The notes under the pieces: generated by a model
Seen by the model: only the letters and a program-made list of their open reading frames with translations
Database searches by the model: none
Told to the model about the DNA's origin: nothing
In this document: piece by piece, positions 956 through 56,760 of the stretch
Position numbering within the stretch: the first letter of the stretch is position 1
How the letters are laid out: each line of letters opens with the position of its first letter
Position numbers and translations under genes: made by a program
DNA from: a virus
Direction: 5' to 3' (one strand)
DNA length: 58,973 bases
IMG/VR virus record: IMGVR_UViG_3300025769_000119
Location: 1-58,973 of that record

Positions 956-1756
956 TTATATACACTCTAAAACCTGCTTCCACTCCATATCCCCAATGAC
1001 AGAAGTTAGTTTCGTTATATCTGCCTGAGTGAACTTTTGGTATTGTCCTTTTAATTTTTCTGGCATTGCTATTTGCTTAACTTTTGCTCCAGAATTCTCT
1101 GCCATTTTGTCAGCAATATCCCTAAAAGGAACAGAATTACCAGTGCCAACATTAAAGATCCCAGAGTCATCATGATGAAGCATCCTATAATGAACTTCAC
1201 AAACATCCTCAACATGGACGAAGTCTCTGCTGGCTTTTCCTCTAAAAACTTTGATCTCACCATGTTCTTGAACTTGTTTAACGAATTTAGTAATAGGACT
1301 TGCTTGATCTCCTTTGTGCTCCTCATGAGGACCATACACATTGAAGTACCGAAATCCTTGATACGGATGCTTCTCGTTTAACAACCAATTGTCAAACATA
1401 TATTTACTATAAGCATAAGGACTCAATGGAATACAGAACTGATCCTCTTGGAAAGTGTCTGCAACCCCATATACTGAAGCACTGCTAGCATATTGGAATT
1501 TAATATCCATATTAGCACACAATTGATAAAGAGTGCCAGAGAAGATAAAGTTCTCATTTAGAATCTTTTTTAAGTCAGTTTCTGTCGTACTTGAGTTAGC
1601 CCCAAGATGAATAACTGCATCAATACCATTTAAAGGAGGCAGACTGCCGCCAAATTTTATGTCATAAGGTACAACTTCTATTCCCCTCTTCTCAAGATAA
1701 GGGCAAAGGTTTTTCCCAATGAAGCCTTCACTGCCAGTGACTACAACACGCTGCAT
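956..1756 (-). CDS. hldD: ADP-L-glycero-D-manno-heptose 6-epimerase
   Basis: This short-chain dehydrogenase/reductase converts ADP-D-glycero-D-manno-heptose to the L,D form, the donor for LPS core heptose. It shows the NAD(P) Rossmann motif GSEGFIG (residues 8-14), GANSSTTETD (52-61), the SSASVY segment and Y114-x3-K118, FRYFNVYGP followed by HEEHKG with the Lys148 that HldD enzymes use as a second acid/base, and KLKGQYQKFTQAD near the end. These stretches match my memory of E. coli HldD closely and separate it from GalE-like relatives. At 266 residues it is shorter than bacterial HldD (about 310), mainly in the N-terminal half and the C-terminal end. It is the only gene of the ADP-heptose pathway visible here, so substrate would have to come from the host. 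Confidence 0.9.
   Translation of the reverse strand: MQRVVVTGSEGFIGKNLCPYLEKRGIEVVPYDIKFGGSLPPLNGIDAVIHLGANSSTTETDLKKILNENFIFSGTLYQLCANMDIKFQYASSASVYGVADTFQEDQFCIPLSPYAYSKYMFDNWLLNEKHPYQGFRYFNVYGPHEEHKGDQASPITKFVKQVQEHGEIKVFRGKASRDFVHVEDVCEVHYRMLHHDDSGIFNVGTGNSVPFRDIADKMAENSGAKVKQIAMPEKLKGQYQKFTQADITKLTSVIGDMEWKQVLECI
961..965 (-). promoter_or_regulatory. WGTGTAW motif before 652-948
   Basis: GTGTA on the minus strand (context GAGTGTATATAA), 12 nt before the ATG at 948. It lies in the last codons of hldD, overlapping its Cys-Ile codons just before the stop. One of eleven copies at gene starts; promoter role inferred. Confidence 0.45.
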
Positions 1757-1767
1757 AACGCATTATA

Positions 1768-2739
1768 TTACAAGTCACCTTCGTCTTCAACAAATTCTTT
1801 AATATGATTCAAAAATGGAAAACCATTAAGCAAATCATGATGTTCTGCAAATGATTCATCATCCCAACCCCACTCAGAAAACTTCTCTTCTTCGTCCCAA
1901 GCTAAAACTTCTTCTGAAGCCATAGAACTTACAGGCTTTTTAGCCCAGAATTTGCAACTCCAGTAGCGTGGGGTAGTTTTATCTTTGGCAGTATCGCACT
2001 TATGACGCGCTCTAAAGCTCCTGCGACGATCTGGGTCGTCACGTTTGATCTCCATGTTAGGATCACCAAACTTAACCATAATCACATTGCCAGTCTTGGG
2101 ATTCTTAACATAAACGCCAAACTTCTTTTTGCCATCCTTAAGTCGGAATGGCTTGTTTAAAGTCTTTTTTTCTGCTTCTGAGTAATCAATGTCTTCGATA
2201 TCTTGATCTGATTCAGATGAAGCATCCATCCGAACGAAATCTAAACGGGCAAGAGCAAAATCAATTTCCTCATAATCAACGAAAGCTCTTCCAAGCTCTT
2301 CAATATAATAATCTTCAGAACCTCTTGCTACATCCTGATCGGCTGCACGGTAAGATTTTTTAACCTTACCTCCGCGCATCATCTTTAAAAACATATTTAC
2401 TCTAGCCATCGCCCATTGACCTCTGGTCTTGTTAGGACGGTGACTAGAGCTAAATGCTCCCGCACCACGGCGGTAAATTTTCTTTAACTGAGAAAGTGTA
2501 ACTTTTTTGGAATGCTTTTCATTATGCTCTTTTACTTTATTTTTTAGAGCAGTAACTACTTTTTCTGAGAAGGTAATCTTTTTCCCATCTTTCCCAGCAC
2601 TACCTTTTTCGTTCTTACTAGAACCTTTTTTGCGCTCGCTAGGCTTTGCTGGAGTTTGCGCTCCACTTTTAGGCCCAGAACGCTTGGCAGACTGAGATTC
2701 AAGAAATTCTTTAGCTTCTTTAGAAAAATCGTATTCCAT
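1768..2739 (-). CDS. Phage virion-type protein with DUF5824-like domain
   Basis: A 323-residue protein with a low-complexity basic N terminus (Lys, Ser, Gly, about 15-60), a central conserved block (RGAGAFSSSHRPNKTRGQWA, about 90-115, followed by YRAADQD) and a second block beginning KKKFGVYVKNPKTGNVIMVK that continues with FRARHKCD and ends near RYWSCKFW. Both blocks resemble domains found in putative structural or capsid-associated proteins of marine myoviruses and siphoviruses; DUF5824 is recalled, not searched. The C terminus is acidic. The ATG at 2739 is preferred over a TTG one codon upstream, and a WGTGTAW motif lies 10 nt before it. It sits far from the head genes, between hldD and a cluster of tiny genes. 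Confidence 0.6.
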   Translation of the reverse strand: MEYDFSKEAKEFLESQSAKRSGPKSGAQTPAKPSERKKGSSKNEKGSAGKDGKKITFSEKVVTALKNKVKEHNEKHSKKVTLSQLKKIYRRGAGAFSSSHRPNKTRGQWAMARVNMFLKMMRGGKVKKSYRAADQDVARGSEDYYIEELGRAFVDYEEIDFALARLDFVRMDASSESDQDIEDIDYSEAEKKTLNKPFRLKDGKKKFGVYVKNPKTGNVIMVKFGDPNMEIKRDDPDRRRSFRARHKCDTAKDKTTPRYWSCKFWAKKPVSSMASEEVLAWDEEEKFSEWGWDDESFAEHHDLLNGFPFLNHIKEFVEDEGDL

Positions 2740-2748
2740 CAAAAGATG

Positions 2749-2937
2749 TTACACTTGTTTTTCAAAAACTTCGTTATAACTTTGAAGTTTTTCTTCGTCA
2801 GTCATATTATCAAGTTTACGATCAACCTCTTCATTAACTAGAGTAGAGATTATATCTATTAACTCTGCAAAAGTTAGATTACTTGTAATATGATTAACAA
2901 GGGCTTCGTGAAGCTCTTGTTCTTGATCAGGAGCCAT
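2749..2937 (-). CDS. Small acidic phage protein, unknown function
   Basis: A 62-residue acidic, helix-rich protein (many Glu, Asp, Leu and Ile) with no motif I recognise. Its start codon overlaps the stop of the upstream gene as TAATG, which indicates translational coupling. It belongs to a chain of four coupled small genes (3495 down to 2749). The overlaps and the compact arrangement support it being real. Confidence 0.6.
   Translation of the reverse strand: MAPDQEQELHEALVNHITSNLTFAELIDIISTLVNEEVDRKLDNMTDEEKLQSYNEVFEKQV
2750..2754 (-). promoter_or_regulatory. WGTGTAW motif before 1768-2739
   Basis: GTGTA on the minus strand (AAGTGTAACATC), 10 nt before the ATG at 2739. It falls at the 3' end of the upstream small gene. 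No strong Shine-Dalgarno sequence lies between motif and start. Confidence 0.45.
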
Positions 2938-3140
2938 TACTTCTGTAATTGCTTACTCTTATAAATTCGCAGATCAGGCTGGTTATCCTTTTCTTTGTAT
3001 TTATTCTTGAAGATAACGATTTCTAGTTTTTCACCTCCAACCGTTACGCTTCCAGAGTAAAATGGCTTGTCTCCGCCTTTACGCCAGAGAGCACCAATTT
3101 CACGCTCTGACCATTCGCTTGATGTATTATTTTCGTTCAT
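2937..3140 (-). CDS. Small beta-rich phage protein (DUF736-like)
   Basis: This 67-residue protein begins polar, followed by SEREIGALWRKGG and alternating hydrophobic strands (SGSVTVGGEKLEIVIFKNKY, then KDNQPDLRIY). The pattern W-x-K-x-G, then S-G-x-V, then I-V-I-F-K-N, then P-D-L-R-I-Y is typical of a small single-domain family common in phages and plasmids and often listed as DUF736; the assignment is from memory. Its function is unknown. The start overlaps the preceding stop as ATGA. Confidence 0.65.
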   Translation of the reverse strand: MNENNTSSEWSEREIGALWRKGGDKPFYSGSVTVGGEKLEIVIFKNKYKEKDNQPDLRIYKSKQLQK

Positions 3141-3286
3141 AGATTTGTATAGCTTTTGATTAAGTGCTTCTTATTATGAGGAAGCTCAGTATAACGCTTT
3201 TTAATTCTCTTGTAAACCCTTTTCATGATTGGGTCTTTCTGAAAAGAAATTAAGCTCCTGAGATATCTTGCTGTCGATCCACTCAT
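3137..3286 (-). CDS. Tiny basic protein, 49 residues
   Basis: A 49-residue gene beginning MSGSTARYLRSL and ending KSYTNL. It is strongly basic, with a run of Arg, Lys and Tyr (MKRVYKRIKKRY) in the middle. The start overlaps the stop of the upstream gene as TAATG at 3286, and its stop overlaps the next start as ATGA at 3137-3140, so it is locked into the coupled chain on both sides. A longer reading frame on the same strand across 3201-3386 has no such junctions. The pattern resembles tiny conserved proteins I recall from T4-like cyanophages. Function unknown; a nucleic-acid-binding role is only suggested by the charge. Confidence 0.7.
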   Translation of the reverse strand: MSGSTARYLRSLISFQKDPIMKRVYKRIKKRYTELPHNKKHLIKSYTNL

Positions 3287-3495
3287 TACTTGCCAAATGA
3301 GACTTTGTCAAGGCTTGTTTTTGCAAATCGACGAACATTTCCATTATTCCGATCAAAGATCTGAATATAACTTTCAGTCTCTCCACGAAACTGAGCGTTT
3401 AAGGTTTCCCCCTGTGTAGTTTTAAGGCCAAAAAAACGACCCCGTGTACCACGAATGACATTAAGTGCAGTTTTCTGCTTACGATTTAATTTCAT
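3286..3495 (-). CDS. Small basic beta-strand protein
   Basis: A 69-residue basic protein (MKLNRKQKTALNVIRG at the start) that continues as alternating strands around GRFFGLKTTQGETLNAQF and YIQIFDRNN. This could form a small SH3- or OB-like barrel. It opens the chain of coupled small genes, and its stop is joined to the next start by TAATG. The function is not recognised. It lies 32 nt past the end of the Clp-type ATPase gene. Confidence 0.6.
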   Translation of the reverse strand: MKLNRKQKTALNVIRGTRGRFFGLKTTQGETLNAQFRGETESYIQIFDRNNGNVRRFAKTSLDKVSFGK

Positions 3496-3527
3496 AACAT
3501 GTTATTCTAGAAATAAAAGCCACTTTA

Positions 3528-5822
3528 TCAACTAGAAAGACAAATTTTTTCTAGATTTATTTTAGAGCAATCCTTTGTTATCTCTTTGCAAATAAATTTA
3601 TTTATCTGCTTTTCGAACCTGTCTTCAAAGTCTACTAGGTTCTTAGAGGAAGAAGCAAATCTCTTGAGAAAACTCAGTGTAAACACAACCTCTATATTGT
3701 TCAACCTCAAATCCTCATTGATCTTTTGAAGCTTATGATAAAGAATCCTGAATATATCTTTCTTCCTGACTTGCTTCAATACTAAGTTGCAGTCAAAGAG
3801 CGATAATAATTCTTTAAAAATAGAAGAGGTAGGAGAGCCAGATTCAGAATTGAATCCCATAGAAGAGGAGTTTTCAACACCGCTAGTGACAAATATTTTA
3901 GCATTGGAGAAGTCAGCTAAATCTCCATTTGCCATTTGAAGCCTACCTTCTTTTAGAATTTGAGCAAATATAGTCTTAACAGAAACATGTAGCCTATGAA
4001 AATCATCAATAATGATCACACTATTCGGATGAATATTAATCTTCTCACAAAGAGAAGTATTGTTCATTACCTCTGGTAGAATTTTAAACTTAGCAAACTC
4101 GTCTGAGAAATGAACTCCGCTGTAACTTAAAACATTAACCCCTCTCTTCTCTAAAGACTCCTTTAAAGTAGAGCAGAAGAAGCTTTTACCACTGGATTCT
4201 ACCCCAGTTAGGCAATAGATGTTAGGAGCTGCCCCCTTTTTGTTCATGCCGTAGCTTGATAGTGAAATACTCTCAACGAGAGAATCTATAACACTTTTAT
4301 TTCCTACAAACTTACTGTTTAAACTTTTCGAAAGTTCTGACAAGATTTCTGGCTTCCTCAAAGGATTCTCTTTCTTAGAAAAGAAATCTTCAAGGTGCTT
4401 CATTGCTACTTCAGGAGTATTTTTTTGCTTATCTTCCGCCCAACCTGAAAGTCTATTCGATACAAAAGACATTATGGACTCTGTAGAAGTTAGATCTACC
4501 TCACTAGCTTTTATTTCATCCTGAATTTCTTTAAAGGAAGAGTCTTCTTGCCAATGAGAAAGTTTGGCTTGAGCACCACAGTGATCAATAACATCAATAG
4601 CTTTATCTGGGTAAAACTTATTAGGGAGATATTTCTCACAAAAATCAATCACATGATTAATAAAGTTCTCTGTGTAACTGACTCCATGAAACTCTTCATA
4701 GTATGAGGTGATAGTTGGCAGGATCTCCTCCATTTGGAATTTTGAAGGTTCCTTAATGGTAACTCTTTCAAAGCGACGATCCAAGGCAGTGTCCTTCTTA
4801 ATTGTATTGGTATACTCGTTAATAGTTGTTGCTCCAATACAGCTAATAGTACCTCTTGCTAATTCTGGCTTAAGAATATTAGAAGCTTCAAGAGAGTTCT
4901 CTGTTGTTCCTCCAGCACCAACTAAAGTGTGGATCTCATCTATGAATAAAATAATATTGTCATATTTTTTAACTTCATCAACAAACTTCTCAAGCCGCTC
5001 TTCAAATTGCCCCCTATATTGGGTGCCAGCAACCATACTAGACAAACTCAAAGAATAAATAACTTTGTTCGCGATGAGCTCTGGAGCTTCCCCATTTACG
5101 ATCTGACAAGCGAGACCTTCAATTAAAGAAGTTTTACCTGTTCCCGCTGGACCCACTAGAATTGCATTAGGCTTTTTCTTTCTACAAAGAATTGTGGCTA
5201 TTTCTGATATCTTGTCATCAAAGTCTACAATTTTATCGAAATCTCCACGAGAAGCTTTTAAGTTTAAGTTTTCTGCAAATTGATCCAGAATAGGGTTCTC
5301 ATCGAACATACCAATCCATTTGTCAACTAATTCAACGGAAGAGTCTGAGTCGAAATAACTTATGAACTCATCATCCTCGTCTTCTTCATCTTTTATGAAT
5401 CTAGTAATATCTGTAATCAGAATTCGAAAATCCTCTTCCCCAAGAACTGAATTTAAAGCCTTGGGTGTAAAGCTATCGCTCAACATGACAAGAAGTATAG
5501 ATTCTGGTCCGATATAATCTAAACCAAAAATATCTCTCTGGATGATCTCACATTCTTCAATTAGCTTATTTAGCTTAGTGGAATATTTTCTAGAAGTTAT
5601 TTTTTGAGGTTTTTTCTTCTCTATTACTTGAAGCGATGCAAGCTGTAGAGCCTCTTCGGAAGAAAACTTCTCAAGTAGGGCCGAGCAGGAAAGACTTAAG
5701 TCATTGATAAAACTATGAAAAAAAACATCTATATCTACCCTATTCCTTTCAAGGAGTTCGTTTAACTCTTGAGATTTTTTAAAAATAGAAGTCAGTTGTG
5801 GAGTAAATGGAAGATCGTTCAT
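3528..5822 (-). CDS. ClpA/ClpC-type AAA+ ATPase with degenerate second ring
   Basis: A 764-residue double-AAA protein. A Clp-N-like region (about 1-145) and an acidic linker precede D1: Walker A GPAGTGKT (224-231), a pore-loop segment near AGTQYRGQFEERL, Walker B LFIDE (292-296), and an intact arginine finger in ALDRRFERV (346-354). D2 keeps Walker A (GVESSGKS, 540-547) but has IIIDD instead of DE in Walker B (603-607). In place of the usual EFRNRLD arginine-finger block it has ELLSLFDCN (671-679). A loop with Met-Gly-Phe (655-657) sits where ClpA/ClpC carry the IGL/LGF loop that docks onto ClpP. The long ClpB middle domain is absent. The start overlaps the polymerase stop as ATGA. It likely unfolds proteins, possibly with host ClpP; a replication role is also possible. 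Confidence 0.85.
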   Translation of the reverse strand: MNDLPFTPQLTSIFKKSQELNELLERNRVDIDVFFHSFINDLSLSCSALLEKFSSEEALQLASLQVIEKKKPQKITSRKYSTKLNKLIEECEIIQRDIFGLDYIGPESILLVMLSDSFTPKALNSVLGEEDFRILITDITRFIKDEEDEDDEFISYFDSDSSVELVDKWIGMFDENPILDQFAENLNLKASRGDFDKIVDFDDKISEIATILCRKKKPNAILVGPAGTGKTSLIEGLACQIVNGEAPELIANKVIYSLSLSSMVAGTQYRGQFEERLEKFVDEVKKYDNIILFIDEIHTLVGAGGTTENSLEASNILKPELARGTISCIGATTINEYTNTIKKDTALDRRFERVTIKEPSKFQMEEILPTITSYYEEFHGVSYTENFINHVIDFCEKYLPNKFYPDKAIDVIDHCGAQAKLSHWQEDSSFKEIQDEIKASEVDLTSTESIMSFVSNRLSGWAEDKQKNTPEVAMKHLEDFFSKKENPLRKPEILSELSKSLNSKFVGNKSVIDSLVESISLSSYGMNKKGAAPNIYCLTGVESSGKSFFCSTLKESLEKRGVNVLSYSGVHFSDEFAKFKILPEVMNNTSLCEKINIHPNSVIIIDDFHRLHVSVKTIFAQILKEGRLQMANGDLADFSNAKIFVTSGVENSSSMGFNSESGSPTSSIFKELLSLFDCNLVLKQVRKKDIFRILYHKLQKINEDLRLNNIEVVFTLSFLKRFASSSKNLVDFEDRFEKQINKFICKEITKDCSKINLEKICLSS

Positions 5823-9682: not shown

Positions 9683-9691
9683 GACTTGATC

Positions 9692-15503: not shown

Positions 15504-15512
15504 AGACCAATC

Positions 15513-18991: not shown

Positions 18992-19000
18992 CTTAAGATA

Positions 19001-22200: not shown

Positions 22201-22222
22201 CAATATAAGTCACCTCAAAGTT

Positions 22223-22724: not shown

Positions 22725-22826
22725 TCAATCTTCTTCGAATTGTGCTTCGTCGATGCGATCAAGTATAAATGCTATTGTTTCGTCGAGTTCTACCTCGTCT
22801 GTAAAATTAATTTCTGGTTCGGTCAT
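22725..22826 (-). CDS. Tiny acidic protein, 33 residues
   Basis: A very short open frame of 33 residues, MTEPEINFTDEVELDETIAF at the start, strongly acidic throughout (about a third Asp or Glu) and probably one or two helices. It fills part of the 219-nt space between hsp20 and nrdA. A WGTGTAW motif lies 12 nt upstream of its ATG, the spacing seen at other genes, which supports it. No Shine-Dalgarno sequence is apparent. Function unknown. Confidence 0.5.
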   Translation of the reverse strand: MTEPEINFTDEVELDETIAFILDRIDEAQFEED

Positions 22827-22838
22827 AGTGCATGTATA

Positions 22839-22843
22839 TACAC
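22839..22843 (-). promoter_or_regulatory. WGTGTAW motif before 22725-22826
   Basis: GTGTA on the minus strand (TTGTGTATATAC), 12 nt before the ATG at 22826, just past the nrdA stop. Its position in this gap is the main reason to believe in the tiny gene. Confidence 0.42.
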
Positions 22844-22864
22844 AAAACCAAACCTTGGGGAAAT

Positions 22865-25483: not shown

Positions 25484-25495
25484 GTCTCATCTATT

Positions 25496-25500
25496 TACAC
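25496..25500 (-). promoter_or_regulatory. WGTGTAW motif before nrdB
   Basis: GTGTA on the minus strand (TTGTGTAAATAG), 12 nt before the ATG at 25483. It is the first motif on the left side of the palindrome array and would drive nrdB, nrdA and what follows. Confidence 0.5.
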
Positions 25501-25548
25501 AACCTGACGAAATGGGCAAGATAAAAATGAAAAAAGTTGGCAAAGCCT

Positions 25549-25702
25549 CCTTATTAATACGAACGAAGAGAGTATTAATAAGGATACGTACCCTTACAGC
25601 GCAGTAAAGGTACGTATCCTTACGTAAGGTTACGTATCCTAACAGCGAAGTTAGGTTACGTACCCTTTCCTTCGTTGACTCCGTTACGTTATTATACGGA
25701 GT
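25549..25702. repeat. Palindrome and TACGTA array in the divergent intergenic region (origin/control candidate)
   Basis: The 290-nt gap 25484-25773 separates the minus-strand nrdBA run from the plus-strand sigma gene and has no gene. Within it are nested inverted repeats: a perfect 12-bp pair at 25549-25560 and 25572-25583; AGGATACGTACC at 25581-25592 with its complement at 25609-25620, extended inside by four more pairs; the palindrome CCTTACGTAAGG at 25618-25629; an imperfect hairpin at 25628-25668 with core CCTAAC/GTTAGG; ACTCCGT/ACGGAGT at 25678-25684 and 25696-25702. TACGTA occurs five times (25585, 25611, 25621, 25631, 25657) and the loops share CAGCGCAG/CAGCGAAG. An AACGAAG/CTTCGTT pair frames the block and an A-run follows it. 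This suggests protein-bound iterons. Confidence 0.75.
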
Positions 25703-25732
25703 AAAAAAAATCTGTCAACAAAAAAAATTTAC

Positions 25733-25773: not shown

Positions 25774-26361
25774 ATGGATTATCAGGCTAGCGACCCAGAG
25801 TTAACAGAACTAATTAAAGACGATGATAATGAGGAGGCATTAGGTTTACTTATAGATCGGCACTCTGGTATTTATATTGACATGGTTAGAAGATATGCTT
25901 CCAAATCTCTTCCTCCTGATGATATTGCTGACATTATCGATGACAAAGATTATATTATATACAAAGCAGCATTAGACTATGACGAAAAAAAAGCCAAGTT
26001 CTCAACTCATGTTGGGAATAAAGCTAAATATCTTTGCTTGAGTAGGAAAACAGCTAAGAAAAATAGCAGAAAAATTTTATCTTTTGAATCGATTGATTAC
26101 GCTGAAGAATCAAAAGATCTTCATCCGGATGAGAGCTGTGAAATTAAAGAAAGTTTTTCTGAAATTATTAACTTAATAAATAGTCACAAAGACGAAAGAG
26201 TTAAAATTATTTTTAAAGAAAGATACTTTGCTGGAGAGAGAGGTAAGTTAGAAACTTGGAAGAATATTGGAGACAAGATAGGCATCTCTGCTCAAGGATG
26301 TATAAACATACACGACAAAACATTAGAAGAATTTAAAAAGCAAATTAAAAAAAATGCATAA
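25774..26361 (+). CDS. Sigma-70-family factor
   Basis: A 195-residue protein with a region 2-like part (GLLIDRHSGIYIDMVRRYAS, then DIADIIDDKDYIIYKAALDY and KFSTHVGNKAKY, which binds core and the -10 element) and a region 4-like helix-turn-helix near the end (RVKIIFKERYF, then WKNIGDKIGISAQGCINIHD). It lacks regions 1 and 3 and resembles short ECF-like or T4 gp55-like late factors. It is the first plus-strand gene beyond the palindrome array, which suggests it acts early in choosing phage promoters. The stop overlaps the next start by 8 nt. WGTGTAW is a candidate target. Confidence 0.85.
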   Translation: MDYQASDPELTELIKDDDNEEALGLLIDRHSGIYIDMVRRYASKSLPPDDIADIIDDKDYIIYKAALDYDEKKAKFSTHVGNKAKYLCLSRKTAKKNSRKILSFESIDYAEESKDLHPDESCEIKESFSEIINLINSHKDERVKIIFKERYFAGERGKLETWKNIGDKIGISAQGCINIHDKTLEEFKKQIKKNA

Positions 26362-28791: not shown

Positions 28792-28796
28792 TACAC
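28792..28796 (-). promoter_or_regulatory. WGTGTAW motif before the fibre-like gene
   Basis: GTGTA on the minus strand (AAGTGTATTATT), 26 nt before the ATG at 28765. Longer spacing than most copies. Confidence 0.4.
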
Positions 28797-28803: not shown

Positions 28804-29382
28804 ATGAAATTTACACTTTACAAACCAAATGCTAAAAATACTGGATCTGCCTTCACCTTTGATTCCACTAAAGACAGGAACGGTAAGCCTGTGCTTTTTG
28901 TCTCAATGATTTTACAACACAGCTGGAATGATGAACGGAAAACAGGCTCTTTTAAAGAAAATGCCAAAAATCCAGAAAAATCCACAACAATCAAGCTAAC
29001 AGAAAATGAGGCTGGTGAATTCCTGTCTTGCATGAAGACTCGTATCCCTTTTGTGGGTTTTCACAAAACTGAAGACAAAACCACTATTATTAAACTAACT
29101 CCTTGGGATAAAAATCGCATTATTAAAAACAAAGATGGTCAAGAAACCTTCAAATCTCCAGCTTGGGGGTTAACAGTTACAAAAAATTCTTCGCAATTCT
29201 TCAAGCTCCCAATTGAAGCAGGAGAAGCTGAGTGTTTAGCCATCCTTCTTGAAGGCTACATTAAAGAAAGTCTGGTTGCCCAATCAGAAGCCTACAAACA
29301 AGAACAGCCACAAAAAACTTACCAAAAACCAAAGCCAAAAGCCTCAGTTGTTGAGGATGACGATGACGATGTCCCATTCTAA
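28804..29382 (+). CDS. Single-stranded DNA-binding protein, phage type
   Basis: A 192-residue protein. The body begins MKFTLYKPNAKNTGSAFTFD and continues with strands (PVLFVSMILQHSW, TIKLTENEAGEFLSC, TTIIKLTPWDKNR) like a Whirly or PC4-type ssDNA-binding fold seen in phages. The C-terminal 25 residues are a flexible basic linker and end DDDDDVPF, the acidic-hydrophobic tip that lets SSB proteins recruit replication partners. It would coat single strands for the phage replisome. It is the first gene of a plus-strand operon, divergent from the fibre gene. Confidence 0.75.
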   Translation: MKFTLYKPNAKNTGSAFTFDSTKDRNGKPVLFVSMILQHSWNDERKTGSFKENAKNPEKSTTIKLTENEAGEFLSCMKTRIPFVGFHKTEDKTTIIKLTPWDKNRIIKNKDGQETFKSPAWGLTVTKNSSQFFKLPIEAGEAECLAILLEGYIKESLVAQSEAYKQEQPQKTYQKPKPKASVVEDDDDDVPF

Positions 29383-39112: not shown

Positions 39113-39113
39113 A

Positions 39114-40658
39114 TTAAGCTATTATATACTGTATTACACGAGTTGTAGTTCCATCAGCTAAATTAGATGTAACTATATCGCTTGTCGCGTGATATTCTGT
39201 CTCCTCTAAAGCTGCATTAATTTCTGTAGTTTTACTGTTTAAAAAATCCTTTCCATAATGAATTCCATATGAAGGGTCTGCCGTGGTTGTAGCAGTCACT
39301 GTTGCTGACCCCAATTTATCCAAATCAGATACTACAAGTTTTTGTTTTAAATTAGATACATCAATAACCACGCTATTTCTTTTCACTTTATCTTGTTTTT
39401 GGACAGATATATCAAACTTCAAAATTCCTCTTGGTAATGGTCCAGAATTATAAGTATCATCTGTAGTATACTTAATATTCTCTGTCACTGATCCTCTAGG
39501 TTTATCAATTGTTGCTGATCTAGATTTTTCATATATGCTAGTTGCTTCAGAAAACAAATTAGAAACCTTGGTGTTATTTTTATCTTTGTAAGATTCCCAT
39601 AAAGCAATCACACTATCGTATCTTGTTTGTGAGTTTTTATCCCTAGCTTTGTAAGTGACGCTCAAATCATATTCAAAAAATGCCCCCGTTTTGTTTTTAG
39701 TACAATTATAGGAAATGCTATTTTGTTGAGACAATTGCGGATCAGTAGAAAAACTTATAGAGAGGGAAGCTTTTCTTGAGTCTTTTGTTATTCCCTTTTC
39801 TATGGCAAATGGTTTACCAAACTGACTTTCTTGATCAGATATAATGCTATCTATAGTTGTTCCAATGGCATTGCCTATTATATTAGAAGAGTCATATTTT
39901 AATGATGTAAGCTCAATATTAAAAACTTTTGTAAGATACCCTTTCGCATCAATAGAGCTAGAAGTAGTTATTTTTTTCGAAACATCTTCTGAATCAACAA
40001 CAAAAGAAGAATCAAAACTTTCTTGCAAATCAACAGATAAGTTTACTAAATCAATAGTTTGATTGAGTGTTCCATTATAGTTGTCATCGAACCTAGCATT
40101 CTCAGATATCCCATCTTCGTAGTATCCCAAGTTGGGCCTATTGGCGTAGTAATAATTAGTAAGAAATATCTTTGCGTTTGTTAAAAACTGATCTCCCGCA
40201 TCTTGAGAATATTTGATTGATACAGTTCGTTCATAAGAGTAATCTGCATCTGATCTTGTAAAAGTATAACTCTCTGAGAATTCTTCTAACAAATGAGGAC
40301 TTGGGATATACTTAGCAAAAGCAGTTGAGCTATAGTCATCCAATCTTCTTCTCTCTTCAATTGTAATATTTACAGTATCTTCTCCATTCAGAGATCCCTC
40401 TTCAAAAGATATACTAGTGAGCAATCCGTTTAATATTTCATCTCCAGCTATGCGAGCTGTTATATTTTGCCTTTTGTAAGCAGATCTTATAGCCGCTCTA
40501 CCAGAAAGAAGAACACCATCGTTATTGTCGAACTGTATATCTTCAACCTTTATAGTATAATTAAAAATAACCAAGTATCCAAATATCTCCTGACTCTCTA
40601 AATAAGAGTAAGATATTTGAGAGCTAGAGTTTATTACATTGTTAACTAAAAGGCTCAT
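39114..40658 (-). CDS. Beta-rich tail protein, possible relative of the downstream neighbour
   Basis: A 514-residue protein. It begins with a domain around FGYLVIFNYTIKVEDIQFDN and VLLSGRAAIRSAYKRQNITA, then a region with 'ASLSISFSTDPQLSQQNSIS' and 'AFFEYDLSVTYKARDKNSQT' that matches the repeat style of 37499-39112. The C terminus is beta and Thr-rich. It follows the tape measure gene by 14 nt, where distal-tail proteins usually lie. Confidence 0.55.
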   Translation of the reverse strand: MSLLVNNVINSSSQISYSYLESQEIFGYLVIFNYTIKVEDIQFDNNDGVLLSGRAAIRSAYKRQNITARIAGDEILNGLLTSISFEEGSLNGEDTVNITIEERRRLDDYSSTAFAKYIPSPHLLEEFSESYTFTRSDADYSYERTVSIKYSQDAGDQFLTNAKIFLTNYYYANRPNLGYYEDGISENARFDDNYNGTLNQTIDLVNLSVDLQESFDSSFVVDSEDVSKKITTSSSIDAKGYLTKVFNIELTSLKYDSSNIIGNAIGTTIDSIISDQESQFGKPFAIEKGITKDSRKASLSISFSTDPQLSQQNSISYNCTKNKTGAFFEYDLSVTYKARDKNSQTRYDSVIALWESYKDKNNTKVSNLFSEATSIYEKSRSATIDKPRGSVTENIKYTTDDTYNSGPLPRGILKFDISVQKQDKVKRNSVVIDVSNLKQKLVVSDLDKLGSATVTATTTADPSYGIHYGKDFLNSKTTEINAALEETEYHATSDIVTSNLADGTTTRVIQYIIA

Positions 40659-40672
40659 TTTTAATATTTATT

Positions 40673-45160: not shown

Positions 45161-45170
45161 TGTAATTAAA

Positions 45171-45175
45171 TACAC
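45171..45175 (-). promoter_or_regulatory. WGTGTAW motif before the tape measure gene
   Basis: GTGTA on the minus strand (TAGTGTATTTAA), 10 nt before the ATG at 45160, overlapping the TAG stop of the upstream gene. Confidence 0.45.
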
Positions 45176-46808: not shown

Positions 46809-46859
46809 ATATTTTTCGACAATATATTATCGTTAAAAATATAGATATGTCAACAAATA

Positions 46860-47231
46860 CTAAAAAATATATTCAATTCCAAGAGATGAATCTCCATGTT
46901 TTTCAAACTCAATATAATCAAATCCAGTCGAACCAGAAACATTATTAGCAATCAAAACATCATCAATAAAGTAAGAATAAGTGTCGTTGCTTTTCATATG
47001 GATAGATAGATTAACTGGAATATTCGGAGCGTATCCTCCAACAAATTTACCAGACTGATCAAAAACATACCCTTCATATCCAGAGAATACAAAACCACTA
47101 TTAAGCAACCCATCTCCTTCTGCATTACCAGTTCCACCAGCAACAGAGAACCCAGAAAAAGTGTTTTCAACTAGAATATTTAAATTCAAAATAGATTCTT
47201 CGTATCCAGTAAGTTGTTGATAAACTTTCAT
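46860..47231 (-). CDS. Small beta-sandwich virion-type protein
   Basis: A 123-residue protein of beta strands and Gly-rich turns (FSGFSVAGGTGNAEGDGLLN, then GYVFDQSGKFVGGY and YSYFIDDVLIANNVSG). Similar small proteins sit near tail tube genes, but the function is not known. It is a single-gene unit between two terminator-like structures, with a WGTGTAW motif 11 nt before the ATG. The 51 nt downstream of it hold an AT-rich imperfect palindrome. Confidence 0.6.
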   Translation of the reverse strand: MKVYQQLTGYEESILNLNILVENTFSGFSVAGGTGNAEGDGLLNSGFVFSGYEGYVFDQSGKFVGGYAPNIPVNLSIHMKSNDTYSYFIDDVLIANNVSGSTGFDYIEFEKHGDSSLGIEYIF

Positions 47232-47242
47232 TCACTATATAT

Positions 47243-47247
47243 TACAC
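47243..47247 (-). promoter_or_regulatory. WGTGTAW motif before 46860-47231, directly after a terminator
   Basis: GTGTA on the minus strand (TTGTGTAATATA), 11 nt before the ATG at 47231. The T tract of the tail tube terminator abuts it, so a new start of transcription is needed here if the terminator works. Confidence 0.6.
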
Positions 47248-47277
47248 AAAAAACAGCCCCACCTTTCGGTGAGGCTG
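47248..47277 (-). terminator. Intrinsic terminator after the tail tube gene
   Basis: Ten-pair stem with one mismatch (CAGCCCCACC/GGTGAGGCTG on the plus strand) and a 4-nt loop. On the minus strand six T residues follow. It lies 22 nt past the tail tube stop. Confidence 0.88.
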
Positions 47278-47298
47278 CTTAGATTTTTTTAGTTATAA

Positions 47299-48507: not shown

Positions 48508-48530
48508 ATTTTAAAAAGGTTTACTTTAAA

Positions 48531-48535
48531 TACAC
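48531..48535 (-). promoter_or_regulatory. WGTGTAW motif before the tail tube gene
   Basis: GTGTA on the minus strand (GAGTGTATTTAA), 23 nt before the ATG at 48507, 5 nt past the stop of the upstream gene. Confidence 0.42.
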
Positions 48536-48539
48536 TCAT

Positions 48540-49418: not shown

Positions 49419-49421
49419 TTT

Positions 49422-50497: not shown

Positions 50498-51018
50498 TAG
50501 TATGATCTATAAGAGCTTGTAGGTTGATAAGAATCAATGCTGTCAATTGGCTCAATTCCATCTCGACCAAACACCTGCAATGGGGAAGACTTGTATTGGT
50601 TATAACGTCCTACCAAATCATTTAGCCTATCAGTAGCATCAACCTTTAAATCTCTATATGTTTTAGCAACGGAGTTTTTGTTTTGTCTCTGAATAGTAGT
50701 ATCACCTTCTTTGAGGGTAATCCAGTCAGTATCTCCCCCATAAGTAAATCCACGCAGAGAATCCCTAGCTGCTTTCTCATAGTAGTGAATCTGATATAGT
50801 GTGGAAAGAATATTTTCTTCAATTGGCAATAAACCTGATCCTGTAGCAATTTCTATAGCACCAGTATCATTAACATAAAATTCTTCATTGGTGAGGCCAT
50901 TAAGTTCTCCAATGTTGGTCTCAAGCCAACCAGAAACATAAGACACAGGAAACCTCTGCCTATCTTCTGAAAATTCGTAATTGACTATTTTTGTTGCTAG
51001 TGAGCCAAGATCATTCAT
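50497..51018 (-). CDS. Head-tail adaptor-like protein
   Basis: A 173-residue mostly helical protein (LGSLATKIVNYEFSEDRQRF, then SGLLPIEENILSTLYQIHYY and KDLKVDATDRLNDLVGRYNQ-type helices). Helical bundles of this size just after the capsid genes are usually the adaptor that docks on the portal. No motif beyond that. A CTGTAAGAT sequence, a poor copy of WGTGTAW, precedes the ATG. Confidence 0.5.
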   Translation of the reverse strand: MNDLGSLATKIVNYEFSEDRQRFPVSYVSGWLETNIGELNGLTNEEFYVNDTGAIEIATGSGLLPIEENILSTLYQIHYYEKAARDSLRGFTYGGDTDWITLKEGDTTIQRQNKNSVAKTYRDLKVDATDRLNDLVGRYNQYKSSPLQVFGRDGIEPIDSIDSYQPTSSYRSY

Positions 51019-51055
51019 TAAATAATCTTACAGCAAAACAAGCATTTAGGGAACT

Positions 51056-51427
51056 CTATAGCTCAAACAGCTTCTTAACTTCTGGGTCTTCAGTAGAGAT
51101 TACTGGTTTGGGTGATCCAGCAACAGAAACATTGTGTTGCCTCAAATAAATATCAAAAGATTTCTCTAATGCCTTTTTCAAAGAAGGTTTAGACCCCATT
51201 TCCATTCCTGAAATTCCAACCCTTTGAGCTAACTCAGTCATCTGAGAAATAGACATAGAAGCTAAAGTTTCAGCAAATATTTCTTTATCTAAAGTTTTGT
51301 AGGGGTTCATATCTTTAATCCCTAGTAGATCTTCAAGCTCCCTAGCTTTTTCAATTCTTTCGCCTTTATCTTCGTGATTTTTTCCATCAGCAAAATGGAA
51401 CCCTTGTAGGTTTTCTTGATCTGCCAT
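51056..51427 (-). CDS. Small helical protein between capsid and neck genes
   Basis: A 123-residue acidic protein. KARELEDLLGIKDMNPYKTL, then ASMSISQMTELAQRVGISGM and KALEKSFDIYLRQHNVSVAG read as short helices like a HeH/SAP-type module. Its function is not known. It stands alone between the capsid terminator and the adaptor gene, with a WGTGTAW motif 17 nt before the start. Confidence 0.6.
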   Translation of the reverse strand: MADQENLQGFHFADGKNHEDKGERIEKARELEDLLGIKDMNPYKTLDKEIFAETLASMSISQMTELAQRVGISGMEMGSKPSLKKALEKSFDIYLRQHNVSVAGSPKPVISTEDPEVKKLFEL

Positions 51428-51444
51428 AACTTATAATAAAGTAT

Positions 51445-51449
51445 TACAC
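51445..51449 (-). promoter_or_regulatory. WGTGTAW motif before 51056-51427, just past the capsid terminator
   Basis: GTGTA on the minus strand (TAGTGTAATACT), 17 nt before the ATG at 51427 and shortly past the T tract of the capsid-gene terminator, so it would restart transcription. Confidence 0.58.
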
Positions 51450-51460
51450 TAAAAAAATCA

Positions 51461-51490
51461 AAAAAAAAGAGCCGCCCCGTAGGGCGACTC
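51461..51490 (-). terminator. Intrinsic terminator after the major capsid gene
   Basis: Nine-pair stem with one mismatch (GAGCCGCCC/GGGCGACTC on the plus strand, loop CGTA). On the minus strand eight T residues follow. It lies about 20 nt past the capsid stop. Confidence 0.9.
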
Positions 51491-51510
51491 CTAAATTTAG
51501 GAAACCTCTA

Positions 51511-52626
51511 TTAGAGGATGATTCCGCAAAGAGCGCGGTCGTCAATACAGACGCGACCCTCTTCAACTTTACCATAGTAACCAATCTTATTCTGACGGAC
51601 AGAGAACTGGTCGTCAACGAGAACGTTGAGTTCACCAGTTGAACCTTCGTCAAGAACAACAGGACGGATAAGAGCGTCACGAGAACGGTCGATACCGATA
51701 AGGATCTGCTCAGAAGCTTCAGTGAAGCTCACGCTACCCTTAACAGCATCAAAGATCTTATTGAAACGCTGTCCACTACCCATTTCAAGAACTTCAATGA
51801 TATTGATACCATAGAAGCTTGGAAGACCAGCACCGCTATAAAGCTGAGAGCGAAGATCTTCTGGAGCAGCAAGTCCATTAGAAGCAGCATCGGTAGAGAT
51901 AGTTCCACCAAGAGCTTTCGTGGTGTTGATTGGGTTGTAAGCCATAGCGCGAATGTCTGCAACTGCTTCAGGAGAAACAAGCAAATCAGTCACACCAACT
52001 TTAGAACCACCAACTGGAGTACCACCAACGAAAGAGCTGTTGATACGCTTAGAGGTGGTGATCAACTGATTCAAGTCATCAAGAAGCAGAGTCGATCCTG
52101 CGGCAGAGATAATATGATCTCCTGCGGTAGCAGTGAGGCTATCTCCACCAACGAGAGCGGTAGCAAGCACGTTGAACGCAGTGCGCTCCTGCTTGAGCAT
52201 AACCTCTTGAGCCATACGAGTAAAGGTCTTGGAAACCACATCAACGCGAGCCTTCTTAGCATACTTACGGTCGAAAGCGAGTGCGCTGTCGAGAGTGTAA
52301 GTGCTAAACTTCAGCTCGTTATGAGCTGGGAAGACTTGGTTGTAAGGAAGTCCACCAGCGACTTGCTGGGAATAAACCTGTACATAATCTTCTTCAGTAA
52401 CATCGTGGAAAAGGTCAAGAGGAAGAGATGGATTATCATCAGCCTGATAAGTCAGGGTGGTGAAAAGATTTCCAACAGTCACAGCGTTGTTGATAACTTC
52501 AGTGACCACAGGTCCAAGAAGTTCTGCAACAGCTGCCTGTGCTTCGTAAGCCTCCTCACGATTATTCGAACCCATTGCGCGAACAAGGGCTAACTGATCT
52601 TCAGTTCTTTTAATAGTAATTTTCAT
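51511..52626 (-). CDS. Major capsid protein (HK97 fold)
   Basis: A 371-residue protein. N-terminal arm of helix with RTEDQLALVRAMGSNNREEA and EAQAAVAELLGPVVTEVINN, then TLTYQADDNPSLPLDLFHDV. The body includes LDSALAFDRKYAKKARVDVV (spine helix region), VTDLLVSPEAVADIRAMAYN, GINIIEVLEMGSGQRFNKIF and QILIGIDRSRDALIRPVVLD, the last in the P-domain. Composition (Ala, Val, Leu, Asp) and the place between decoration protein and neck proteins support it. Terminator directly downstream. Expected to be the most abundant virion protein. Confidence 0.85.
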   Translation of the reverse strand: MKITIKRTEDQLALVRAMGSNNREEAYEAQAAVAELLGPVVTEVINNAVTVGNLFTTLTYQADDNPSLPLDLFHDVTEEDYVQVYSQQVAGGLPYNQVFPAHNELKFSTYTLDSALAFDRKYAKKARVDVVSKTFTRMAQEVMLKQERTAFNVLATALVGGDSLTATAGDHIISAAGSTLLLDDLNQLITTSKRINSSFVGGTPVGGSKVGVTDLLVSPEAVADIRAMAYNPINTTKALGGTISTDAASNGLAAPEDLRSQLYSGAGLPSFYGINIIEVLEMGSGQRFNKIFDAVKGSVSFTEASEQILIGIDRSRDALIRPVVLDEGSTGELNVLVDDQFSVRQNKIGYYGKVEEGRVCIDDRALCGIIL

Positions 52627-52641
52627 AATCTGTGAGTAAAA

Positions 52642-53220
52642 TTAGAGGTTGATGTTAACGATTGCATAGTCTCCTGCGTGAGTATCACCAGCAGCACGAG
52701 TTCCAGTTGCAAGGACTTGACCGACTTTAACAGCATTACCACCAGCAACACCAAGTTTTCCAGCAGCGTGCCCATAAACGTCAGTTCCAACAGCAGGAAC
52801 AGCAGAACCAGTAAATGCACCTTCCATGAAAGTGAAGATACCTTTGGTTGCAACAGGGACGGACTCTCCAGAAAGAACGCACTGAAGCTCTTCTTTCTTT
52901 TGTGGGTAGAAACGAAGTTTCTCACCGTTTTCGTCAGTGTCACGAACGTCACGAAGAAGAATTCCAAGAGCAGAATCTCCAGATCCAGCAGCTTCCACAC
53001 GAAGTGGGTTAACAGAAAGTGGAGAATAAGCGTTACCCTGAGAAGTCAGGAATTCGCCTCCACCATCGACGAGATCAACAAGATCGTCGTTAAGGTTGGC
53101 GGCAGAGACTTTAACAATAAGTCCTGCCCCTTTATTTGTACCTTCCATAGCGAACATGTTGACAACATCGTTGTCATCATATTGACGGAAAGGCAACAAG
53201 TTAGTAATTTCATTAGCCAT
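52642..53220 (-). CDS. Head decoration-type protein
   Basis: A 192-residue beta-rich, Gly/Ala/Val-rich protein. It contains GTNKGAGLIVKVSAANLNDD, GSGDSALGILLRDVRDTDEN and FTGSAVPAVGTDVYGHAAGK. Its place between scaffold and capsid genes and its compact beta composition fit a decoration or minor capsid protein. No sequence motif proves it. Confidence 0.6.
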   Translation of the reverse strand: MANEITNLLPFRQYDDNDVVNMFAMEGTNKGAGLIVKVSAANLNDDLVDLVDGGGEFLTSQGNAYSPLSVNPLRVEAAGSGDSALGILLRDVRDTDENGEKLRFYPQKKEELQCVLSGESVPVATKGIFTFMEGAFTGSAVPAVGTDVYGHAAGKLGVAGGNAVKVGQVLATGTRAAGDTHAGDYAIVNINL

Positions 53221-53243
53221 AATATTTATTTGTAATTAGATTT

Positions 53244-54767
53244 TTATTTAGTAACTTCAACAGAGAAGTTTTCTTTTAGTTTTTCAACTAAAGAGATTTG
53301 TTCTGAGGCTTCAGCGTTGTTGTTAGGAATAGAAGGGGCTTCAACCTCTTCAACTTCCAGCTCATCTTCGCTAGCCTTAACTTCTTCTTGCTCTTCAGTA
53401 GCCTCTTCAGCCATCTTGGAAGCAATAGCTTCTTCGATTTTAGCTTTAACAGCCTCTTCTTGAGCAGCAATGGCCTCTTTGGTCTTGCTTGCAAAAAGAA
53501 TAGAAAGTTTCCCTTTAAAGGCATCAAAAGCTTCCTCAGAAGCCTCAACAACCTTTAACTCATCTACGACTAACTGAAGCTCTGCCTCAGTAAGTTCGTA
53601 AGTGGAGTCGATAAAGTTCATGCGAGAGTTAAATAACTCAACAGCAGCTTGAGCTTCGATCTCAGATTTGAGAGAAGTGAGTTCTGACTGAACAGCTTCA
53701 AAAGAAGCTTTCATTTCAGCAAGATCTGCTTCAGCCTTTTCACGGGCTTCTGCTTCAAGTTGAACTTTAGATTTCCAGTTTTCGGAATGCTCAGTAAGAG
53801 CATCACGCATAATCTCGCCAACGGAGCTGGCTTGATCGTCCTTCTTGACAACGGAAGCTACGCTTTCTGCAACTTGTGTCATTAATGTTTCGAATTGTTC
53901 TTTATCCATATCAAAAATATCGAATTTGTTTGTTGTTACAGTGTTTTTATTGTTTAGGGAATTTTTAATATTAATATTATCTTGTTCTGCTAAAGAATTA
54001 TCAACATTGTTTTCACTTTTCTCTGGTTCTGAAGTATAAACTCCTTTAACTCTAGCAGCAGGTTTATATGTCAATGCCGCTCCTAAAGGATAAGTTTCAC
54101 CATGAATTAATCGATGTACAGGAGTTCCATCTTTGTCCATACCTTTGCCTCCAAAGCCCTTTACATATTGCTTTAACTCTTCTGCCTGTGAACCTTCGGC
54201 AACTTGGCACTCGTCCAATCTATTAGATCCATAGACGACTTTATAGTTCTTAAATGCAAGTTCCCAACTAGTAGCAATACTTTGATATTCTTCATTTTCT
54301 TCTTTAGCGGCTTCTTCAATGGCTTCTGCTAACTCTGGAAAAATATTTTTGTAAATTAAACCAGCAGCATTAATATAAAAAGGCTCTTTTTTGTCAGCGT
54401 ATGATTCAATAGCGTTATCTTTAAAATCATACTCATCAACAGAGAAAGAAGCGTTAATCATATGCCCTACAATTTTGTGCTTCTTATGTTCAATGTTAAT
54501 CGGCTTATTAATAAATCTTTTTACTGCTGCTACGGCTGTTTCAGAATCAATACCGTCTCCGTTCTTGTTAAACTCATTAACTAAAGCTAAGTTGAAGACA
54601 ACAGGCAAAACATCAACATTCTGTGACGGGTCAAAATCTTCTGGAAGTAGAGATTTAGCTGCCTCTGCGATAGATCCTTCTGATACTCCGAACTTCTCGT
54701 AGTCAGTCTGTTTGAGAGCTTTAATGTTACAATCAAAGCTACTTACCTCAAAATCTTTTAAATCCAT
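53244..54767 (-). CDS. Prohead protease fused to scaffold
   Basis: A 507-residue two-part protein. Residues 1-240 look like a serine prohead protease: INIEHKKHKIVGHM offers His94 (conserved E-H pair) and SIATSWEL offers Ser167, with HGETYPLGAALTYKPAARVK at the end of the domain. After a polar linker (about 245-290) comes a long helical, Glu/Ala/Lys-rich region with coiled-coil character (EREKAEADLAEMKA-type) and acidic tail, the scaffold. Protease and scaffold in one frame are known in several phages. The protease is expected to cut itself and the scaffold out during maturation. Motif 9 nt before the ATG. Confidence 0.78.
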   Translation of the reverse strand: MDLKDFEVSSFDCNIKALKQTDYEKFGVSEGSIAEAAKSLLPEDFDPSQNVDVLPVVFNLALVNEFNKNGDGIDSETAVAAVKRFINKPINIEHKKHKIVGHMINASFSVDEYDFKDNAIESYADKKEPFYINAAGLIYKNIFPELAEAIEEAAKEENEEYQSIATSWELAFKNYKVVYGSNRLDECQVAEGSQAEELKQYVKGFGGKGMDKDGTPVHRLIHGETYPLGAALTYKPAARVKGVYTSEPEKSENNVDNSLAEQDNINIKNSLNNKNTVTTNKFDIFDMDKEQFETLMTQVAESVASVVKKDDQASSVGEIMRDALTEHSENWKSKVQLEAEAREKAEADLAEMKASFEAVQSELTSLKSEIEAQAAVELFNSRMNFIDSTYELTEAELQLVVDELKVVEASEEAFDAFKGKLSILFASKTKEAIAAQEEAVKAKIEEAIASKMAEEATEEQEEVKASEDELEVEEVEAPSIPNNNAEASEQISLVEKLKENFSVEVTK

Positions 54768-54776
54768 AAAATGTTA

Positions 54777-54781
54777 TACAC
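54777..54781 (-). promoter_or_regulatory. WGTGTAW motif before the protease-scaffold gene
   Basis: GTGTA on the minus strand (AAGTGTATAACA), 9 nt before the ATG at 54767, immediately before (on the minus strand, just after) the portal stop. Confidence 0.45.
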
Positions 54782-56743
54782 TTAAATTTTAGTTGAGTGA
54801 TATAAAATTGCAGCAGACATATCGTCAAGCTGATGCTTAGAACCCATATCTAGAACTTCAGGGTCAACATTTAACTCAGAAAGGTTATCTAGATTCTCCA
54901 CAACATTAGATAGTGTTTCATCCCACTCTTTTGATGGCTTAGAAACAATGATTGATTCACAAGCGCGAGAAACTAAGTCTTTCCGATCTTCATCAAGTTC
55001 TTCTAAACCAAACTTAAGAGCAAAGTCGCGGTAAGCTCTCAATTCAAACTCACTAACCATTTTAGTAGCTTCAACAATATGTTTCTTAGAGAAGTTAGAA
55101 TTAGATACTCCAATGGGGCGACCACCAGAAGGAGCTATAGGTGCAGCTTGTTCTTGAGGTTCTTGTTCGGAATCTTCCTCGTTTTGAAAGAGATTAATGC
55201 TATTTACAAGAGGCATGTAGTAACCCTCTTCCCTCTGCTCTTTGAAAGATTCTTGGGCAGACATTAGATCTTCTGCCTTTGGGAATACTCCATTATGAAC
55301 AACTTCCATTCCTTGTTGTGGAGTGAGTACTCCAAGCTCCATCATACGAGTAGCAAGCTTGGTCATGTCTGAATTATCAAGAGTATCAGTCTTAACAAAC
55401 TTAACCTCTGGCCAAGAACGCATACCAGCCGCTTTACAAATTCGACGGATCTCTGGCTGCAAGAAATCACGAATAAATTGCTGACGAGACTCTTCAAGAC
55501 GCTGGATGAAGATCTTCATCTTAAGTTGTCCATCTGCGTATTTGTTATCCCCAAGTAAAACATTCTGAAGTCCTTCTTGGATGTCACGGTTTAAAATTTC
55601 ATACTTTTCTGGACCAATTACTTTTCGGAGATCAGGAATAATGAAATCGGCTTTAGTTGTATAATCAGATACAAGAACACGACCAACGCTTTGGTTCTTA
55701 AAGATATTCTGCATAGCAGACAGGGCTTTATGGTTAACTCCACCCTTATCAGGCTCTGCACCCATAGTAACTAACAAAACAACATTTTCAATAGAACGAG
55801 AAATAGCTTGGTCAATTTTCTTAAGTTCTAATTTCTTATTGATGTCATCAAGGACAGAGAAAGCATATGGAACAGAAAGCGGCTCATAGTCTTGTTTTTT
55901 GGCAAACACTACATGTAGTAGTTCAGATGCTAATTTTATGTATAAACGCTCAGTTGTAGTAGCAGTGTTATTTTGTATTCTTACTTGGACATCTTCTGGT
56001 AAAGAGTTGTACATCTCAATCTCATGATCAGTTTTGGGATCTTTGAGTCGAGAAATCTCATATGGAGTAAGAACTTTAAAGTATTGAAAATCATTAAATG
56101 AAATAGAACCTTTAGTAGCAATATCTGTAGGGTTCATGATTAAATACTTAATAGGGATAGGCACACTTTTAGTTGCACCATAAGTCTCTAAAACCCTACC
56201 AGTATCATTTGTTTTAATCCTACCATCTACACGGTACATAAACACATTACCAGACCTATAGTATTCGCGGAAGTATTGTGACTTAATATCGTGTATTTTA
56301 ATTCTTTTAAACCAAGCATTAATAAAGTTCCTTGATTTATCAGAACCGCCTTCTAGATAAAGGTCAGAATCAGCGAAATCAGATAACATATCAATAGTAC
56401 TGCGGAAAGCTGGTACGTTAAAGTAAGCTTTCTGACATAGCTGAATAGCATCACGTACATCTACTGAATCACGGGAGTAATCAAATGGCAATAAACCATC
56501 ATCAATATTCTTGAATCTGTTTTTAGTATAACTCTGAGTAACACTGTTAGTTCTTGAACTAGAACGCTTACTAGAATCAGAAAGCCTAGAAGCAGTTGTT
56601 TCATAAAGAGATTCTCCTACTAATTCTGGAGAAAACTCTTCGGCAAGAGATTGTCTTGTTAATTCTTCAAGATTATTATTGGGAGTATTAGATTTGAATT
56701 TTTCCCAATACTCAGACCTCTTAGTATACTTACGTTTTGCCAT
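54782..56743 (-). CDS. Portal protein
   Basis: A 653-residue portal. Features: a basic N terminus, DAIQLCQKAYFNVPAFRSTI and RIKIHDIKSQYFREYYRSGN (clip and stem region), IFKNQSVGRVLVSDYTTKAD, LRKVIGPEKYEILNRDIQEG, and MELGVLTPQQGMEVVHNGVF near the C-terminal third, which is the most family-like stretch. Twelve copies would form the ring through which DNA is packaged. It lies in the usual place between large terminase and protease. Confidence 0.88.
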   Translation of the reverse strand: MAKRKYTKRSEYWEKFKSNTPNNNLEELTRQSLAEEFSPELVGESLYETTASRLSDSSKRSSSRTNSVTQSYTKNRFKNIDDGLLPFDYSRDSVDVRDAIQLCQKAYFNVPAFRSTIDMLSDFADSDLYLEGGSDKSRNFINAWFKRIKIHDIKSQYFREYYRSGNVFMYRVDGRIKTNDTGRVLETYGATKSVPIPIKYLIMNPTDIATKGSISFNDFQYFKVLTPYEISRLKDPKTDHEIEMYNSLPEDVQVRIQNNTATTTERLYIKLASELLHVVFAKKQDYEPLSVPYAFSVLDDINKKLELKKIDQAISRSIENVVLLVTMGAEPDKGGVNHKALSAMQNIFKNQSVGRVLVSDYTTKADFIIPDLRKVIGPEKYEILNRDIQEGLQNVLLGDNKYADGQLKMKIFIQRLEESRQQFIRDFLQPEIRRICKAAGMRSWPEVKFVKTDTLDNSDMTKLATRMMELGVLTPQQGMEVVHNGVFPKAEDLMSAQESFKEQREEGYYMPLVNSINLFQNEEDSEQEPQEQAAPIAPSGGRPIGVSNSNFSKKHIVEATKMVSEFELRAYRDFALKFGLEELDEDRKDLVSRACESIIVSKPSKEWDETLSNVVENLDNLSELNVDPEVLDMGSKHQLDDMSAAILYHSTKI

Positions 56744-56755
56744 GTCACAAATTGT

Positions 56756-56760
56756 TACAC
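56756..56760 (-). promoter_or_regulatory. WGTGTAW motif before the portal gene
   Basis: GTGTA on the minus strand (TAGTGTAACAAT), 12 nt before the ATG at 56743, directly past the AT-rich hairpin that follows terL. Confidence 0.45.

Follow-up and report, generated by a model that had tools for sequence, protein, structure and literature searches.

We found that the five-base word GTGTA, followed by A or T, stands as a conserved element just before gene starts in a virus record from IMG/VR (IMGVR_UViG_3300025769_000119). This linear stretch of 58,973 bases, probably a fragment, was analysed whole and is called the window below. Judging from sequence, we consider it highly likely that the element is a single-element promoter of the -10 type, which host RNA polymerase would read with a phage sigma factor encoded at position 25774, yielding leaderless or near-leaderless mRNAs of middle and late genes. 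The window appears to represent a large family of uncultured, mostly marine bacterial viruses that switch on their late genes with their own sigma factor via GTGTA. An earlier note on this DNA had pointed to GTGTA before eleven minus-strand gene starts. All eleven sites were found, and re-measurement returned exactly the gaps given there, 9-12 nucleotides (nt) in eight cases and 17-26 nt in three; a conserved site before 39112 is additional to them. The sites are as follows, with G numbers denoting the whole records of relatives that were read:

961-965, minus strand: GTGTA element, 12 nt before gene start 948; conserved before the G001 orthologue
2750-2754, minus strand: GTGTA element, 10 nt before 2739; conserved in G001 and G005
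22839-22843, minus strand: GTGTA element, 12 nt before a 33-codon open reading frame (ORF; 22826-22725) just after nrdA
25496-25500, minus strand: GTGTA element, 12 nt before nrdB (25483); conserved in G005, G007 and G009
28792-28796, minus strand: GTGTA element, 26 nt before 28765
39135-39139, minus strand: GTGTA element, 22 nt before 39112; conserved in G001, G003 and G009
45171-45175, minus strand: GTGTA element, 10 nt before the tape-measure gene (45160); conserved in G001, G003, G005, G007 and G009
47243-47247, minus strand: GTGTA element, 11 nt before 47231 and directly adjoining a terminator U-run, likewise in G001 and G009
48531-48535, minus strand: GTGTA element, 23 nt before 48507; conserved in G001, G003, G005, G007 and G009
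51445-51449, minus strand: GTGTA element, 17 nt before 51427 and ~10 nt after the U-run of a terminator; conserved in G001
54777-54781, minus strand: GTGTA element, 9 nt before 54767, predicted to be leaderless; conserved in G001, G003, G005, G007, G009 and G015
56756-56760, minus strand: GTGTA element, 12 nt before the putative portal gene (56743); present in all 73 related loci considered below

To compare these positions with chance, we used the 57 genes called in the window at a threshold of 60 amino acids and a null of 2,000 dinucleotide shuffles; the short ORF starting at 22826 fell under this threshold and was left out. Gene starts came from a simple ORF caller that favours ATG, and start-codon statistics were for this reason excluded from the evidence. 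GTGTA stood at a gap of 9-12 nt before seven called genes, where the shuffles gave 0.14 on average and never more than 3, and at a gap of 8-30 nt before eleven, against 0.83 expected. The earlier note had proposed to count the motif against shuffled sequence, and held that a background frequency equal to the shuffles would refute it. Taken literally, that is what the total gives, since the 30 occurrences of WGTGTAW (W, A or T) in the window show no overall excess over the expected 28.1 ± 4.8; the enrichment 9-12 nt before starts, which the note had also proposed to look for, is clearly there. Because the signal of GTGTA is positional, overall frequency is the wrong test, and we discarded global over-representation as a criterion, the negative total being uninformative next to the positional result. 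That the whole pattern is an accident of chance or composition, as the unremarkable total might suggest, has a negligible probability given that the motif is enriched by position in the window and, independently of it, in 15 records of relatives.

Conservation was followed first at one locus, which lies next to the terminase gene:

54782-56743, minus strand: putative portal protein, named from its position after TerL and because its orthologue in G003 weakly matches a portal profile

IMG/VR contains 74 relatives of this protein, whereas cultured phages yielded none. GTGTA was found ~9-15 nt before the portal start in 73 of the 73 loci with a readable upstream region; these span 42-100% protein identity, and the bases flanking the word vary. 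For each of the 15 records we then ranked every possible five-base word, 1024 in all, within the 30 bases ahead of genes. GTGTA came first in 13 of them and second in G015 and G024, the first-ranked word of G024 being a Shine-Dalgarno word. In the same records it was flat in all controls (the antisense strand, positions -75 to -45, and gene interiors), and in a negative control set of 80 T4-like marine contigs it ranked 96 and had no peak at 9 nt. The look into related phage genomes advised by the earlier note thus shows the motif kept in position across many divergent viral genomes. GTGTA before gene starts is a real, conserved and phage-specific element.

The anatomy of the element bears on what it does. 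Among the 1,972 genes of the 15 records, only 10 sites in all had a motif-to-start gap of 0-8 nt, and gaps of 9, 10, 11, 12, 13 and 14 nt occurred 61, 47, 24, 22, 9 and 10 times. This hard lower edge at 9 nt would be expected if transcription starts ~10 nt past the motif and the start codon cannot precede that point. In 278 non-redundant sites, the core consisted of GTGTA with A (0.72) or T (0.21) as the next base and a T/A-rich stretch ahead of it, and we saw no -35 signal, the information being at most 0.06 bit at every position from -45 to -7. Single-base variants of GTGTA were weakly enriched (ATGTA, 15 versus 7.9). For composition around the presumed start we chose sites with long gaps, because the start codon cannot confuse composition there. 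At sites with a gap of at least 16 nt, the frequency of T drops from 0.43 to 0.26 exactly at +10 (p = 2e-8), and purines rise at the same position (p = 0.017 for gaps of at least 16 nt, p = 0.0009 for gaps of at least 13 nt); this change is initiator-like. The conserved position, the missing -35, the 9-nt limit and the change at +10 together argue for the phage-specific, -10-like promoter that the earlier note had proposed, and the hard edge and the start-site-like change are also what its very short or absent leaders would predict. A separate search for selection against cryptic GTGTA in coding sequence gave an effect that was not specific.

The spacing could also suggest that the word acts in translation, as an alternative ribosome-binding site on the mRNA, since GTGTA lies 9-12 nt before starts of genes that have no Shine-Dalgarno sequence. 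As the earlier note had stated, none of the called motif genes in the window has a strong one (GGAG, GAGG or AGGA at -18 to -5), and in the 15 records Shine-Dalgarno sequences precede 0.6% of genes with a gap of 8-13 nt versus 12% of genes without the motif, part of the latter rate being background in these AT-rich genomes. Gene context points away from translation. GTGTA precedes merely 1.2% of genes that overlap their upstream neighbour, and these need translation signals too; it precedes 20% of genes with an upstream neighbour on the opposite strand and 46% of those with a gap of 13-20 nt, the commonest class, in which there is barely room for motif and spacer. Terminators also lead straight into the motif: 17 of 297 terminator-like hairpins run directly into GTGTA, compared with 1 for the reversed control word. 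The site before 47231 is one of these 17, and the strong terminators that the earlier note had placed ahead of the motif at 47231 and 51427 are both there. In such terminator-promoter fusions (47243-47275, minus strand, in the window; also in G001, G003, G005, G009, G017, G020, G025 and G028) the U-run doubles as the T-rich part of the GTGTA promoter that follows. Gaps of up to 32 nt, the composition shift at +10, and a hard 9-nt edge with a decaying tail, which ribosome-binding sites do not impose, add to this, and we regard a translation signal as very improbable. The data support the view that GTGTA marks gene starts that need a promoter of their own.

The proposed reader of this promoter is encoded on the other strand:

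25774-26361, plus strand: phage sigma factor with regions 2 and 4, from profile, PHROG, Pfam and fold matches

Its product of 195 residues has relatives in 95 IMG/VR stretches. A profile built from 46 members matches region 2 of RpoD/SigA (E 9e-5) and aligns C-terminally, though weakly, to their region 4. Among the members, 25 of 46 match phrog_351 (RNA polymerase sigma factors), 7 of 46 carry Sigma70_r2 and 1 of 46 Sigma70_r4. A structure model from the 46 sequences, which replaced a weaker one from 6, reached a predicted local distance difference test (pLDDT) score of 85 with the orientation of the domains undefined; the modelled C-terminal domain has four helices, mostly with pLDDT above 90, and the 50 PDB matches listed in a fold search with this model were all sigma factors or sigma-containing models. 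The protein thus belongs to the sigma-70 superfamily and has both region 2 and region 4. Of the 16 records in the first set, 14 have the gene, and the two that lack it are fragments (46 and 29 kb). At 35-44% identity of the sigma factor, GTGTA is still the top upstream word, and this includes G018, where homologues of the structural genes of the window were not found. Co-occurrence with the motif in nearly all records favours the earlier note's suggestion that the 25774 protein is the reader, a pairing that we consider probable. A second weak match, to phrog_36, lies near the terminase end of two relatives (G008:61537-61812 and G009:52903-53184) and is possibly a second regulator or sigma factor.

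A phage-encoded RNA polymerase might read GTGTA instead, as polymerases of the T7, phiKZ and AR9 types use short single motifs. No multisubunit polymerase domain of the Rpb1 type (PF04998) was detected in 14 records, with a positive control that worked, and a search without a positive control gave no T7-type polymerase (PF00940). We therefore give this explanation hardly any weight.

Besides GTGTA, the genomes contain a second class of promoters, of which the clearest lies upstream of nrdB:

25691-25718, minus strand: perfect host-type promoter, TTGACA-16-TATAAT, 12 of 12 matches

The plus-strand gene at 28804 has a good host-type promoter as well (TTGAAT-17-TACAAT), which is divergent and lies within the leader of 28765. 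In several relatives, intergenic regions were enriched for TTGACA on their sense strand; a Bacteroidota-type promoter (TAnnTTTG), which we tried for the early class, was not enriched and was rejected. No plus-strand gene of the window, the sigma gene included, is preceded by a GTGTA site. The two classes fit an early phase with host sigma followed by a phase with phage sigma, a timing that is our inference. The leader between the host-type promoter and nrdB (25484-25690, minus strand) is rich in TACGTA repeats and folds far better than shuffled sequence (z = -5.7); an Rfam search of the window, this leader included, gave no match.

In the scheme that we propose, transcription of early genes and of the sigma gene would come first, from ordinary TTGACA/TATAAT promoters of the host type. 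With the 25774 sigma factor bound, host RNA polymerase would then recognise GTGTA without a -35 element, and RNA would start ~10 nt downstream of the motif. At the commonest gap, 9 nt, the start point would coincide with the A of ATG and the mRNA would thus be leaderless; gaps of 10-15 nt would leave a leader of ~1-6 nt.

Several observations weigh against this scheme. Sigma factor and motif share ancestry in most records, which makes their pairing correlative, and no record was found with the sigma factor and a different motif, the case that would reveal covariation. Region 4 of sigma factors usually contacts the -35 element, and the 25774 protein retains it although no -35 was found. About one fifth of the sites have gaps of 20-32 nt, implying real leaders. 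Finally, nrdB has a GTGTA site together with the upstream host-type promoter, and some GTGTA genes may for this reason not be strictly late. Part of this would suit a promoter read by host RNA polymerase with a host sigma factor or a phage DNA-binding activator: the link between the 25774 protein and the motif is one of co-occurrence, and it is odd for region 4 to lack a -35 partner. However, GTGTA differs from the TTGACA/TATAAT class of the same genomes, T4-like marine phages show no promoter-like GTGTA peak, and the sigma gene occurs in nearly every record, even where, as in G018, homologues of the structural genes were not found. We consider a host sigma or activator unlikely, and recognition by the phage sigma factor the better account.

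The closest precedent is phage phiEco32, in which gp36 reads middle and late genes from a single element, tAATGTAtA, with a start 6-8 bp downstream and no -35 (PMC8948821). Both systems would use a phage sigma factor on host RNA polymerase and a single element with a TGTA core, and when these cores are aligned the phiEco32 start falls 8-10 nt past xTGTA, which matches the place inferred here. They differ in sequence (ATGTA within tAATGTAtA there, a GTGTAW core here) and in region 4, which is present in the 25774 protein and reported absent in gp36. The family of the window has a sharp spacing of 9-12 nt to start codons. Aligning the sigma profile with gp36 in hhalign gave no match, and the gp36 family, phrog_1740, was matched weakly by 4 of the 46 members (up to 8e-5). 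The GTGTA system would work like that of gp36 by analogy rather than by established membership in one family. Late promoters of T4 consist of the element TATAAATA, read by gp55. In T4, too, a phage sigma factor on host RNA polymerase reads a single -10-like element, but the promoter sequence is another and gp55 falls in another PHROG (phrog_234), with no match to our sigma profile, by which kinship was ruled out. Phage 7-11 gp47 likewise serves late promoters of a phage sigma factor; these are bipartite and of another sequence (GTAAtg-16-aCTA), whereas GTGTA has no second element. Bacterial leaderless genes with a -10 adjoining the ORF are described in Deinococcus-Thermus and Actinobacteria (PMC3160421, PMC12340547). 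They share the -10-type signal ~10-12 nt before the start codon and the lack of a Shine-Dalgarno sequence, but they are cellular genes with a TAnnnT element for host sigma, as opposed to a viral programme with GTGTA and, in our reading, a phage sigma factor. A search of the open literature, which leaves out most subscription papers, did not turn up the GTGTA motif.

Taken more broadly, we lean towards a widespread family of uncultured phages, with records of up to 150-200 kb, whose middle and late genes would be mainly leaderless and served by a dedicated sigma factor that keeps region 4 and by a five-base element without a -35. Initiation would occur at the start codon or a few bases from it, from promoters that fit into gaps down to 14 nt and are in some cases fused to terminators. 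The GTGTA rule would help to read late operons and start codons in a large uncultured group for which no close cultured relative was found here, and it predicts transcription start sites to the base. If true, it provides a virus in which dependence of the late programme on leaderless translation can be tested, with a compact sigma-promoter pair of 195 amino acids and five bases.

Regarding hosts, assignment through portal relatives in genome bins returned mixed taxa and indicated no single host. Contigs of a single Flavobacteriaceae bin contain two different portal relatives (L253 and L255; 98% and 47% identity), a weak hint. The window has no tRNA genes, and G003, a 147-kb relative, carries an array of 18 (L092, 11534-17465). 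Directly upstream of GTGTA, in the stretch that separates terL from the portal-like gene, we noted a 28-base inverted repeat, AAAGTTATAAAGTAACTTTTATAACTTT (56762-56789, minus strand), which is possibly an operator or a packaging signal. The window contains its core word a single time and several relatives contain it once or twice, and similar repeats recur at the terL/portal junction in distant relatives.

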